This document shows, piece after piece, positions 7,035 through 15,664 of a DNA stretch of 64,000 bases. The DNA comes from an uncultured Maribacter sp. Lineage in GTDB: Bacteria; Bacteroidota; Bacteroidia; Flavobacteriales; Flavobacteriaceae. Position 1 is the first letter of the stretch, and every line of letters starts with the position of its first letter. A program made the translations under genes and the position numbers. The notes below the pieces were generated by a model. That model was not told where the DNA came from and searched no databases. It worked only from the letters and a program-made list of their open reading frames with translations. The stretch spans positions 1 through 64,000 of the forward strand of contig NZ_CANMTX010000002.1 of assembly GCF_947500985.1 (NCBI RefSeq), read 5' to 3'.

Positions 7035-7111
7035 TGGTGGAGAATACCGGATTCGAACCGGTGACCTCTTGCCTGCCAGGCAAGCGCTCTAGCCAACTGA
7101 GCTAATCCCCC
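7035..7111 (-). tRNA. tRNA-Ala (anticodon GGC)
   Basis: A 77-base cloverleaf including the encoded CCA end (minus strand). The anticodon stem CTTGC/GCAAG encloses loop CTGGCAG, anticodon GGC (reads GCC/GCU Ala). The acceptor stem GGGGGAT/ATTCTCC contains the G3-U70 pair that identifies alanine tRNAs. The T-arm GGTTCGAATCC is intact. Its 3' end faces the mobile element, the usual integration geometry. Confidence 0.97.
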
Positions 7112-12998: not shown

Positions 12999-13763
12999 AT
13001 GACGAATATTGAACTTCCCGCAGGAAAAAAAGTATACTTTGCTAGTGATAACCACCTAGGTGCACCTATTATGGAAGAAAGTAGGTTGAGAGAACTAAAG
13101 TTTATTCGCTGGTTAGATACGATCAAGTCGGATGCAGGAGTCATTTTCTTAATGGGTGATTTGTTCGATTTTTGGTTTGAATACACAACCGTTATCCCAA
13201 AAGGATTTACTAGAACCCTAGGAAAACTTGCAGAACTGTCTGATGCCGGAATCTCAATACACTACTTTGTTGGTAATCATGATCTTTGGATGAACGGTTA
13301 CTTTGAAGAAGAACTAAACATACCTGTGAACCATAAACCTCAGCAATATTCCATTAACGGAGCATCGTTCTTTATAGGTCATGGTGACGGACTAGGACCA
13401 GATGACAAGGGTTTCAAAAGAATGAAAAAGGTATTTACCAACCCCGTAGCTAAATGGTTCTTTAAATGGCTACACCCAGATATAGGTGTTCGTTTGGCAA
13501 AACACCTATCTGTAAGCAACAAATTGATTAGTGGAGATGATGATGCCAAGTTTTTAGGTGAAGACAAAGAATGGTTGGTGTTATATGCCAAACGAAAATT
13601 AGAAACTCAACATTACGATCATTTTATTTTTGGTCATAGACATCTTCCTTTAGAAATAGAACTAAAAGAAAATTCAAAATATACTAATCTTGGAGATTGG
13701 ATCAATTACTACACTTATGCCGAGTTTGATGGTCAGCAACTTTCGTTAAAAGAATTCAGCTAA
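12999..13763 (+). CDS. lpxH: UDP-2,3-diacylglucosamine diphosphatase (LpxH)
   Basis: A 254-residue calcineurin-like phosphoesterase that makes lipid X in lipid A synthesis. Metal-binding motifs are all present: SDNHLG, MGDLFDFW, GNHDLW, GHGDG and FGHRHLP. The sequence fits the Bacteroidota LpxH branch. It would act at the inner face of the cytoplasmic membrane. It is a single gene, followed by the 638-base gap holding the tandem RNA candidates. Confidence 0.9.
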   Translation: MTNIELPAGKKVYFASDNHLGAPIMEESRLRELKFIRWLDTIKSDAGVIFLMGDLFDFWFEYTTVIPKGFTRTLGKLAELSDAGISIHYFVGNHDLWMNGYFEEELNIPVNHKPQQYSINGASFFIGHGDGLGPDDKGFKRMKKVFTNPVAKWFFKWLHPDIGVRLAKHLSVSNKLISGDDDAKFLGEDKEWLVLYAKRKLETQHYDHFIFGHRHLPLEIELKENSKYTNLGDWINYYTYAEFDGQQLSLKEFS

Positions 13764-13803: not shown

Positions 13804-14000
13804 TAATCCTTTTCTTACAAAAAGAATTGAACAGTTCACAACAATAGTTTTATAAAACTAGTTCTTGGTTATATCTTTACAGTGTTATTAAGTTTGAGTG
13901 TTGACCCAAATCTTCACATTACCTACAAGTTTCCCTAGCTTAAAACCCAAATTTTAAGTGTACCTACTTTAAAGAACTGCCCCTATTTTAGGGGCTTTTT
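13804..14000 (+). ncRNA. Candidate small RNA gene, copy A
   Basis: First of two related units. It starts with TAATCCTTTTCTTAC, then TTCACAACA, a 16-base perfect palindrome (13845-13860) and a -7-like box TATCTTTA (13872-13879), which would start RNA near 13886. The transcribed part carries AGTGTTGA, the core TTACCTACAAGTT (13919-13931), a hairpin CTTAAAA/TTTTAAG (13939-13958), TACCTAC and a terminator (13979-14000). There is no open reading frame of note. The RNA would be about 115 nt. Confidence 0.7.
13979..14000 (+). terminator. Terminator of RNA copy A
   Basis: GCCCCT / AGGGGC stem with 5-base loop followed by TTTTT. Confidence 0.9.
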
Positions 14001-14181
14001 CGTTGTTTTAATTTTTCTACTTCAATTATAAATTTTTACGTTTAGAAAACCTAATGAATTTTTAAAAAGGGATATGCTATTAATTTATACTTCAGAAAAA
14101 ACAAATAATTTATATTTTATACACTCTGTTTATTTTACAAAATCAGACATATTCAAGTCAAATATATTATCAAACAATATC

Positions 14182-14381
14182 TAATCCTTTTCTTACGTAT
14201 TAAAAATGACAATTCACAACAAAAGTTAGTGTAAACTACCAATTGGTAATACCTTTAAACTGTTGTTAAGATTAAGTGTTGATTCCCAAATCTACAGTTA
14301 CCTACAAGTTCCCCCGCTTAATAACAAGATCATTAAGCATTACCTACAATAAAAAAAGCCCCTGAGTAAGGGGCTTTTTTT
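14182..14381 (+). ncRNA. Candidate small RNA gene, copy B
   Basis: Second unit, 378-379 bases downstream of copy A in the same orientation. It shares TAATCCTTTTCTTAC, TTCACAACA, a -7-like box TACCTTTA (14250-14257), AGTGTTGA, the identical core TTACCTACAAGTT (14298-14310), a hairpin GCTTAAT/ATTAAGC (14316-14338), TACCTAC and a terminator (14358-14381). The hairpin bases differ from copy A but pairing is kept, which supports a structured RNA. A 12-base palindrome (14237-14248) replaces the 16-base one of copy A. Confidence 0.7.
14358..14381. terminator. Terminator of RNA copy B and of the MFS gene
   Basis: GCCCCT / AGGGGC stem followed by TTTTTTT on the plus strand and preceded by an A-run, so it can stop transcription from both sides. 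Confidence 0.9.
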
Positions 14382-14401: not shown

Positions 14402-15664
14402 TTAACTCTCGTGTTCTTCTACATCTTTCTGCAAATCGAGCTTTCTAAATTTAGGCGAAACAATTGCCGTAAGACCCACGGTCAATAAAGTCATGGTCCC
14501 GCCAAAAACAACTGCGGTTACCGTTCCCATTAATTTTGCTGTTACCCCGCTTTCAAAAGCACCTAATTCATTAGATGATCCTACGAACATAGAATTTACA
14601 GAAGCTACTCGCCCACGCATATTATCAGGTGTCTTTAATTGTAAAATCGTTTGTCGAATTATCATCGATACGCCATCAACCGCGCCACTTAAAAATAGTG
14701 CTATTACCGATAACCAGAAATAGGTTGATAGCCCGAATACAATCATACAAATTCCGAATCCGAATACGGCGAATAATAATTTCTTCCCTGCATTTTTATG
14801 TAACGGAAATCTCGTAGATCCCAACATCGTTATGGCAGCTCCAACGGCAGGTGCTGCTCTTAGCACACCAAAACCTTCTGAACCTACATTAAGAATGTCT
14901 TGCGCAAATATGGGTAATAAAGCTACGGCTCCACCAAATAAAACAGCAATCATATCTAAGGTCAATGCGCCTAATACCGCTCTGGTCTTAAATACAAAAG
15001 TTAGTCCTTCTTTTAAACTTTGAAAAACGGGCTCCCCTATCTTCGGATTAAGAATTGGTTTTTTAGAAATATTGAAAAGTGCCGTTAATGCCAGTAACGA
15101 AAAGCCGAAAATGACACACATAGACCAATGTACTCCTATTAAACTAATAGAAAACCCTGCTAATGCCGGACCAAGAACCGATGCCATTTGCCATGTTGTA
15201 CTACTCCACGTAGCAGCATTAGGGTATATTTTTTTAGGTACAATTAAGGCTATTAAAGAAAATATTGTAGGACCTAGAAATGCTCGAACTAATCCGCCAC
15301 AGAAGACTAATGCATAAATACCATATAGAATAACTTTAGTCTCATAGGTTTTTAAAACAGACGGTAGACTTAACATAAAAAGTCCAAAACTAATGACAGA
15401 AAACCCGAGTATGCATTTTATTAAAAGATTTCTTTTTTCTTTTTGATCCACAATATGACCGGCAAAAAGTGCCATGCTTACCGCAGGTATCACCTCCATC
15501 AAACCAATTATACCTAATGAGAGCGGGTCTTTAGTCATTGAATAGACTTGCCATTCTATGACTATAAATTGCATTGACCAGGCAAAAACCATGGCAAAAC
15601 GAACTAGAAGAAAAATATTGAATTCCTTATATCTTAAGGCTGCATATGGATCATTAACGCTCAT
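14402..15664 (-). CDS. MFS transporter (EntS-like)
   Basis: A 420-residue inner-membrane protein with about 12 hydrophobic segments. It belongs to the MFS_3/EntS-like branch: the N-terminal region resembles drug and siderophore exporters, and the segment around GLVRAFLGPTIFSLIALIVP is typical. The direction of transport is probably outward. No siderophore synthesis genes are nearby, so the substrate is unknown. Its 3' end meets the bidirectional terminator of RNA copy B. Confidence 0.88.
   Translation of the reverse strand: MSVNDPYAALRYKEFNIFLLVRFAMVFAWSMQFIVIEWQVYSMTKDPLSLGIIGLMEVIPAVSMALFAGHIVDQKEKRNLLIKCILGFSVISFGLFMLSLPSVLKTYETKVILYGIYALVFCGGLVRAFLGPTIFSLIALIVPKKIYPNAATWSSTTWQMASVLGPALAGFSISLIGVHWSMCVIFGFSLLALTALFNISKKPILNPKIGEPVFQSLKEGLTFVFKTRAVLGALTLDMIAVLFGGAVALLPIFAQDILNVGSEGFGVLRAAPAVGAAITMLGSTRFPLHKNAGKKLLFAVFGFGICMIVFGLSTYFWLSVIALFLSGAVDGVSMIIRQTILQLKTPDNMRGRVASVNSMFVGSSNELGAFESGVTAKLMGTVTAVVFGGTMTLLTVGLTAIVSPKFRKLDLQKDVEEHES

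Follow-up and report, generated by a model that had tools for sequence, protein, structure and literature searches.

Introduction

The RNAs CsrB and RsmZ carry repeated stem-loops with a fixed loop, GGA, that titrate the protein CsrA or RsmA.

In Caulobacter crescentus, CrfA sponges the sibling sRNAs SisA-D, which belong to the alphaR8 family (PMC12559287). Within the open-licence PMC literature, the closest work on the Bacteroidota describes two systems, and nothing nearer was found. The multicopy FopS/GibS sRNAs of Bacteroides thetaiotaomicron are approximately 65-70 nt long and pair near the start codons of surface-protein genes (PMC11697453). Rfp18 is a conserved sRNA of Flavobacterium psychrophilum with protease targets (PMC9723704). 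No sRNA sponge in the Bacteroidota was found in this literature, and by title no paper in it has a Maribacter sRNA as its subject.

Here two tandem units are described from a 64,000-nucleotide stretch of DNA of an uncultured Maribacter sp. (NZ_CANMTX010000002.1, positions 1 to 64,000), referred to as the window. Their predicted products, RNAs A and B, are best read as sponges that would titrate a second sRNA, encoded in a tandem array elsewhere in the genome (the array sRNA), away from its mRNAs. The probability of this reading is put at about two in three.

Results

Tandem units in the Maribacter window

The stop codon of the lpxH-like gene and the 3' end of the MFS transporter gene are 638 bases apart (Table 1). 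As the original prediction described, this gap holds two tandem units; they are spaced 378-380 bases apart, and the shared blocks and both hairpin arms that it named are all present in the window sequence. The units have a 101-nt block in common that is 73% identical, and further blocks. They are the only full-length copies in their own genome (BLAST, E 9e-104 and 5e-24); the remaining 27 BLAST matches to the unit are all partial. The upstream gene matches the NCBIfam models for UDP-2,3-diacylglucosamine diphosphatase with E-values of 1e-23 and 2e-17, both below the cut-offs, and has no Pfam match at 0.001.

Each unit has its own terminator and no reading frame, again as predicted. By eye, RNA A and RNA B contain no ATG, and no ORF of 60 amino acids lies inside the units. 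An ATG is present in 21 of 44 distinct relatives. With a promoter of their own, recognized by resemblance, the units have the features of sRNA genes, and they are very probably real ones. The terminator of RNA B is symmetrical and may therefore also terminate the MFS gene on the minus strand.

At the level of sequence, the predicted tandem pair of structured regulatory RNAs from an undescribed family holds: the units have no match in Rfam 15 at the gathering threshold and their relatives are conserved. The suggested match to 6S-Flavo, Flavo-1 or another known Bacteroidota motif was not supported, and neither 6S-Flavo nor Flavo-1 is among the 43 sub-threshold hits between 13600 and 14500 (E <= 10). 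Elsewhere in the window, a tRNA gene (7038-7111, minus strand) is the sole Rfam match at the gathering threshold.

Table 1. Positions of the features described in the text, in the window unless another contig or locus is given.
Feature	Position	Strand	Remarks
lpxH-like gene	12999-13763	+	upstream border of intergenic gap
Unit A	13804-14000	+	promoter block, ~120-nt RNA, terminator
Upstream promoter element A, TAATCCTTTTCTTAC	13804-13818	+	conserved in 41-promoter alignment
TTCACAACA element A	13835-13843	+	41-promoter alignment
Palindrome AGTTTTATAAAACT, promoter A	13846-13859	+	BLAST self-match 13845-13860
Probable -7 box A, TATCTTTA	13872-13879	+	invariant columns T69 A70 T73 T74 T75 A76
RNA A, putative sponge	13882-14000	+	~119 nt; model R1 match 13882-13972 plus terminator; start placed from -7 box
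Module 1 hairpin A, GUGUUGA-CCCAAA-UCUUCAC	13898-13917	+	stem weakly supported
CCCAAAUCUU	13905-13914	+	exact complement of AAGAUUUGGG of array sRNA
ACCUAC, module 1 of A	13921-13926	+	complement of GUAGGU in array-sRNA hairpin loop
Module 2 hairpin A, CUUAAAA-CCCAAA-UUUUAAG	13939-13958	+	helix 2, covariation in 6/6 pairs
ACCUAC, module 2 of A	13962-13967	+	ACCUACUU complements AAGUAGGU
Terminator of RNA A	13979-14000	+	
Unit B	14182-14381	+	promoter block, ~120-nt RNA, terminator
Upstream promoter element B	14182-14196	+	41-promoter alignment
TTCACAACA element B	14213-14221	+	41-promoter alignment
Probable -7 box B, TACCTTTA	14250-14257	+	41-promoter alignment
RNA B, putative sponge	14260-14381	+	~122 nt; model R1 match 14260-14352 plus terminator
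CCCAAAUCU, module 1 of B	14285-14293	+	
ACCUAC, module 1 of B	14300-14305	+	
Module 2 hairpin B, GCUUAAU/AUUAAGC	14316-14338	+	loop without CCCAAA
ACCUAC, module 2 of B	14342-14347	+	
Terminator of RNA B	14351-14381	.	15-nt perfect inverted repeat
MFS transporter gene	14402-15664	-	3' end borders gap
Five tandem array copies	G000:C11:43166-44066 (L184:1480-2370)		spaced ~200 bases
GAUUUGGG			array-sRNA stretch matched to CCCAAAUC of RNA A
Type C, own genome (L121)	G000:C2:313602-313681	-	adjacent HflX gene identified
L004	G000:C1:232716-232768	-	paralogue of AATTTTTCATTTTCATATAGTGTTCTCGTAAAAGAGTC RNA
L124	G000:C8:31196-31274	+	paralogue of AATTTTTCATTTTCATATAGTGTTCTCGTAAAAGAGTC RNA
L126	G000:C10:42835-42910	+	paralogue of AATTTTTCATTTTCATATAGTGTTCTCGTAAAAGAGTC RNA
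FGHHY-type leader loci	L152, L259, L266, L278, L254, L269		
MLYDTYGEEYL-type leader loci	L147, L265, L277		

Promoter block

The promoter alignment comprises 41 regions; L021 and the second copies of L026 and L027 have no promoter block and are omitted. The conserved order is TAATCCTTTTCTTACAACA, then TTCACAACA 21 bp on (counted on ACAACA), the palindrome AGTTTTATAAAACT, a TAYCTTTA box and GTGTTRTTAAG. In many relatives TTACAACA lies 21 bp upstream of TTCACAACA; in copy A it is degenerate. The -7 promoter element of the Bacteroidota has the consensus TAnnTTTG. The TATCTTTA box resembles this element and probably acts as one. The RNAs would therefore start near 13882 and 14260, and the approximately 80 bases upstream would be promoter. 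The predicted ends at 14000 and 14381 are retained.

The TTCACAACA arrangement is resembled upstream of other RNAs in the same genome. After A and B, the promoter model R2 finds four more places there at E <= 6e-5. One is putative sponge C (L121) and three (L004, L124, L126) are the dispersed paralogues of another short RNA (AATTTTTCATTTTCATATAGTGTTCTCGTAAAAGAGTC), which differ in their terminator stems and have an A/B-like promoter.

Repeats of TTCACAACA at a 21-bp period also precede two mRNA leaders, L177 and L183, and are found upstream of an ECF sigma-factor gene (L154) and of genes whose products, judged by eye, look secreted. Direct repeats 21 bp apart are seen at G000:C2:137671, G000:C2:493742 and G000:C4:401008, among others. 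LytTR operators are direct repeats with a 21-bp period that are bound by a LytTR protein. The 21-bp period of the TTCACAACA repeats was seen by reading the sequences, a LytTR response regulator gene adjoins one site, and the repeats possibly mark a LytTR-type regulon. Genome-wide, with up to two mismatches, they number 43 compared with 41 in the control; there is no excess, and the regulon is therefore only a lead.

RNA body

The RNA is built of two modules, each of which is a hairpin, usually with a CCCAAA loop, followed by ACCUAC. The conserved element is CCCAAAUCU. Copy B in the window has lost CCCAAA from its second loop; among the B copies of relatives, this loop keeps CCCAAA in several and lacks it in others. 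Of the two single-stranded seeds that had been proposed, ACCTAC is conserved and complementary to a conserved sRNA. The C-rich linker (TTCCCTA or TTCCCCC) varies among relatives and is therefore not a seed. A 5' block, GUGUURUUAAGNUUAAGUGUUGA, is also conserved, and pairing with the array sRNA leaves it unexplained.

L022, L028 and (in A2) L033 carry deletions or are degenerate, and the RNA alignments omit them. Of the 46 pieces aligned at first, both from L038 are spurious and are absent from later alignments. CCCAAA occurs at least once in 40 of 44 distinct sequences and twice in 27; for ACCUA the figures are 40 and 31. A full module is present in 36 of the 44 and two full modules in 20; one module appears in 13 of 2200 shuffles. 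By these counts the RNA is itself a tandem of modules, which is doubled once more by the gene pair.

RNAalifold finds no structure in the plain MAFFT alignment, because the A- and B-type stems are out of register. The remedy was a covariance model of 17 copies (R1) followed by realignment, which is fitted to R1 and so leans towards the modelled structure. After realignment, all six modelled pairs of helix 2 show changes on both sides. This agrees with the original view that the hairpin pairing is under selection. Helix 1 is paired in 91.5% of cells and none of its pairs is changed on both sides. The whole RNA structure beats 500 of 500 shuffles on all five measures. It is ahead of every slid control in cells paired, double-change cells, further pair types and covariation score. 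In the number of pairs with a double change, two slid controls reach 7, with fewer cells, compared with 6 in the real structure.

Distribution of the putative sponge-RNA family

The DNA search covered 60 genomes, including that of the window, and was continued by iterative nhmmer on the fetched loci. Bare-terminator BLAST rows and L034-L038 are not counted as copies. Fetched copies of the unit come from 25 genomes of the genus, 17 of which have at least two, and the unit is also found in three lineages besides the genus. An uncultured Cellulophaga (L109) has two copies. The unit lies just downstream of lpxH at 10 of 80 lpxH loci (L039-L047 and L109; nhmmer E <= 0.01). The unit is thus not a general companion of lpxH.

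Model R1, which covers the RNA body, matches 33 of 36 genomes of the genus at E <= 0.01, more than chance would give. The match reaches E <= 1e-4 in 25 of the 36 and is weak in eight. The five weak genomes that were read (G034, G007, G030, G014, G002) all have a type C copy beside hflX. Among 299 genomes of the family, scanned with stricter filters, five match. Three belong to the genus; the remaining two, from two further genera, are G284, whose copy has two modules, and G165, whose copy has a single module.

Several loci depart from the layout of the window. The putative type C sponge beside hflX (L121, L143, L301-L305) carries a pair of CCCAAA hairpins together with ACCUACUUAACC or ACUUAACC. 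L022 and L028 are single copies that have lost internal segments. The deletions end within repeated ACCTACA or CCCAAATCT, a pattern that recombination between the two modules would produce, and the deletion copy of L028 is also present at L047, Maribacter arcticus. At L021 and L043 (G016:C20), copies A and B are approximately 3 kb apart and B has no promoter block. Three units are present at L015 (G008:C79), two of them A-type with equal score, possibly through a recent duplication or an assembly artefact.

An alternative is that such units are what remains of target-gene leaders after decay, or a neutral repeat in which promoter, leader and terminator are preserved. Their promoter and RNA start resemble, by eye, the leaders L177 and L183. 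Internal deletions mark some copies (L022, L028), and the promoter block is missing from one (L021). A decayed or neutral origin is nonetheless highly improbable, given the E <= 1e-4 matches in 25 of 36 genus genomes, the occurrence in other lineages and the compensatory changes. The multiple alignment of the putative sponges with target leaders is loose, too loose to prove common origin.

The array sRNA

The pattern CCCAAATCN{4,26}ACCTA is found at 15 places in the genome of the window, compared with one place for the reversed pattern. These include A and B, and five are copies of a tandem array read on the opposite strand. On one side of the array lies a purF-like gene, which matches the amidophosphoribosyltransferase model at E 1e-27, and on the other a superoxide dismutase gene (E 6e-75); both matches are below the cut-off. 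On the opposite strand, a box such as TATACATTTACAG is clear in three of the five copies, and every copy carries CCATAGCATAAGTAGGTTAAGTT(C/T)ATGGTAAGATTTGGG and a strong terminator. The predicted fold consists of an ACCAU/AUGGU hairpin with GUAGG unpaired in its loop, an unpaired AAGAUUUGGGG and the terminator. In this model the sRNA exposes GUAGGU in the hairpin loop and AAGAUUUGGG as a single strand.

The core of the array sRNA hardly varies. Of 125 copies drawn from 30 loci, 93 share an identical 33-nt core, 28 depart from it by a single C/T difference and four carry other changes; the C/T variants are mostly the last copy of an array. The full 41 nt are exact in 85 of the 125. The promoters and terminators of the array diverge while the core stays.

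The array is present in 35 of the 36 genomes of the genus, including that of the window, and the single genome without it is 83% complete. Within the 60-genome set it also occurs in the sole other genus of the family, and all 23 genomes from other families lack it. With up to three mismatches, the core is found in 102 of 299 family genomes and in 86 of 236 genera; the reversed control is found in none. It is present in 18 of the 20 genomes behind the named loci, and was not found in the other two, Aquimarina spongiae and Hanstruepera marina. Carriers include Zobellia russellii, Arenibacter algicola, Flagellimonas beolgyonensis and the sponge-bearing Cellulophaga. All five sponge-positive genomes of the 299 have the core, and 97 of the 102 core-bearing genomes have no sponge match under the stricter filters of the sponge scan.

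Rfam 15 gives no match at the gathering threshold in nine loci that cover the array, type C, the AATTTTTCATTTTCATATAGTGTTCTCGTAAAAGAGTC RNA and copies from other genera. The sub-threshold hits to the array or the window all fall below the gathering score, many of them on GC-rich terminators, and were rejected.

Pairing of the putative sponges with the array sRNA

The complementarity is in two parts. CCCAAAUCUU is the exact complement of AAGAUUUGGG, and ACCUAC(UU) complements (AA)GUAGGU. In the predicted structures exposed parts face exposed parts, linear to loop and loop to linear. Exposed parts of a sponge are expected to complement the exposed seed of its sRNA, and this is the arrangement found; by energy alone A and B are weak.

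Paired with 44 distinct putative sponge bodies, the real core reaches a mean duplex energy of -24.8 kcal/mol, compared with -17.3 (sd 1.7) for shuffled cores, and a mean longest perfect match of 9.8 compared with 6.1. In both measures none of 300 shuffled cores is as good. The strongest duplex is that of type C (-28.2), which is equalled by none of 300 target shuffles and one of 300 core shuffles; its net cofold is -20.0, and none of 100 shuffled cores is as good. The single duplex energies of the window RNAs are modestly better than those of shuffles. For RNA A, 17 of 300 target shuffles and 17 of 300 core shuffles are as good, and for RNA B 12 and 7 of 300, respectively. Among 100 shuffled cores, 11 reach the net cofold value of A (-12.7) and 24 that of B (-10.2). 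Loop-to-linear pairing is beyond what cofold can model, and these two figures still give no support. The AATTTTTCATTTTCATATAGTGTTCTCGTAAAAGAGTC RNA (L004 copy) was tried as a partner of the array sRNA and rejected, with an energy of -6.4 kcal/mol that was equalled in 285 of 300 shuffles and by 58 of 100 in cofold.

Because it was the motif of the putative sponge that led to the core, the complementarity tests are post hoc. Two facts are independent of this choice: the complement lies in a separately conserved putative sRNA, and the leader test described below involves no sponges.

Finding a partner sRNA changes the functional reading of A and B from ordinary regulators to decoys. In a rival reading they would be ordinary trans-acting sRNAs with mRNA targets of their own, and pairing would be the means by which the array sRNA controls them. 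Duplex formation is symmetrical, and conservation of the 5' block and of the AGUGUUGA arm is roughly equal to that of the modules, which leaves room for other functions. On the other side, the array core is complementary to the conserved CCCAAAUCU and ACCUA, and a multi-site decoy is the better fit to two sites in 20 of 44 distinct sequences and at least one full module in 36 of 44. The ordinary-regulator reading is accordingly held to be unlikely.

mRNA leaders as candidate targets

The array sRNA also complements leaders of the form CCCAAAUC...UUAACCUA(C)..AUG (AACCUA-AUG). It thus probably blocks translation at the start codon. In the genome of the window, five leaders match the module pattern: L174, L177 (= L151), L180, L182 and L183 (= L156). 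In the first four, the second half lies at or near the start codon and the products have, by eye, a signal-like N-terminus; three of these products have no Pfam match. Two of the five leaders are preceded by TTCACAACA elements. In L183 (G000:C7:74841), the motif precedes a 16-codon frame that starts with MKYILV, like the L177 product, and this locus looks like a cut-down target gene. The core duplexes of L180 (-32.8), L151/L177 (-30.1) and L174 (-25.7) are each equalled by none of 300 target shuffles, that of L182 by four of 300 and that of L156 by five of 300. L178, L179 and L181 were rejected as leaders; they have no clear gene start codon and may be chance matches.

Among the 299 family genomes, leaders were sought with the pattern CCCAAATCN{14,34}AACCTAN{0,8}ATG, whose gap excludes normal array copies. 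It occurs in 34 of the 102 genomes with the array and 19 of the 197 without it (Fisher p 9e-7). The reversed control occurs in 10 of 102 and 17 of 197 (p 0.83). Tallies were made by hand; G207 is left out, as its only match is an array copy, and G345 is kept for its third match.

Thirty of 66 leader matches were read. Nine of the 19 from array-positive genomes precede an ORF of at least 60 amino acids outside long frames, five lie in long frames and five are of other kinds, one of which is an array copy. From array-negative genomes there are 11, of which two precede such ORFs, six lie in long frames and three are of other kinds. The 11 of 30 that lie inside long open frames are probably due to chance.

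Five of the nine array-positive ORF leaders belong to one small protein (..FGHHY..SKKV..) in five genera. Two of the matches of other kinds precede a 32-amino-acid frame (MLYDTYGEEYL..) in two genera. The genome of the window has both genes, with leaders that are recognizable but imperfect (L152, L147). Because the same genes recur across genera, the Fisher p counts dependent events. The repeated presence of the leader before these genes, with a changing sequence between its two halves, points to selection.

The leaders also bear on the nature of the titrated factor. The CCCAAA hairpin and ACCUAC could be the site of a protein that regulates translation of the leaders, with the RNAs as CsrB-like decoys of that protein. 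Repeated stem-loops, a preferred loop and a covarying stem are the usual look of a protein decoy, and the motif is present in mRNA leaders before the AUG. This would leave aside that the two-part complement is found, with its parts in the proper order, in a separate and strongly conserved RNA, and that type C and the leaders keep the complementarity despite differing spacing and stems. A protein decoy is decidedly unlikely; titration of the array sRNA remains the preferred reading.

Discussion

The sponge reading is built at the level of sequence on gene anatomy, conservation, covariation of hairpin 2, two-part complementarity, conservation of the partner, and the association and recurrence of leaders. 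From these we infer transcription, pairing in the cell, the direction of regulation and a shared activator. Against the reading weigh the modest energies of A and B, the loss of CCCAAA from module 2 of RNA B, the 5' block that the pairing leaves unexplained and the many core-bearing genomes in which no sponge matched. A and B would be trans-acting sRNAs whose decoy site is a CCCAAA(U) stem-loop followed by single-stranded ACCUAC; RNA A would have two full sites, and RNA B one full and one partial site. The decoys would pair with the GUAGGU loop and the linear AAGAUUUGGG(G) of the array sRNA, which would otherwise block translation at the start codons of complementary leaders. When sponges are made from the TTCACAACA promoters, the array sRNA would be sequestered and repression relieved.

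A wider circuit can be put forward tentatively, as a possibility somewhat short of probable. Across the Flavobacteriaceae, a conserved tandem sRNA would block the start codons of lipoproteins and small proteins. Sponges A, B and C would have arisen from duplicated target leaders, in Maribacter and a few other lineages. An activator common to the sponges and some targets would complete a coherent feed-forward loop, in which the signal that switches the targets on also removes their repressor.

If the sponge reading is true, it adds RNA sponges to the Bacteroidota. It also exposes an sRNA outside Rfam 15 with a core that hardly differs among many genera of Flavobacteriaceae, and this array sRNA is perhaps of wider interest than the A/B pair of the window. 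The one-module, two-module, single, paired and lost states would form a natural series in which to trace the origin of a sponge from a target leader. Confirmation would give a new layer of gene control in a large bacterial group where such circuits are hardly known. Sponges are known as a kind; the A/B family, its two-module layout and its partner are absent from Rfam 15.

CsrB and RsmZ resemble the Maribacter RNAs in having repeated fixed-loop stem-loops that titrate a factor, which in their case is a protein. Rfp18 is likewise a flavobacterial sRNA that is conserved and is predicted to pair through a stem-loop; it is a single sRNA with protease targets, and is likened here by description only (PMC9723704). 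FopS/GibS (PMC11697453) are comparable to the array sRNA, which would repress leaders at the start codon as FopS does, and not to A and B. FopS comprises 14 genes and is counteracted by the protein RbpB, and the word 'sponge' is absent from the main text of that source (PMC11697453). No BTnc Rfam family matches the array at E <= 1, and FopS is compared with it here by description.

RNAs A, B and C would titrate the array sRNA as CrfA does SisA-D. CrfA works with Hfq and belongs to another phylum (PMC12559287). The sponge loop is G/A-rich in CrfA (PMC12559287) and C/A-rich in Maribacter. Unlike CrfA, the Maribacter RNAs have at most two sites each and often several sponge genes, and the siblings that they would titrate are in tandem, whereas those of CrfA are dispersed (PMC12559287). 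As described for CrfA, the stem-loop of a structured sRNA complements a 10-nt single-stranded core of terminator-ended siblings, and in SisA-D this core lies downstream of a weak hairpin, which is the layout of the array sRNA (PMC12559287).
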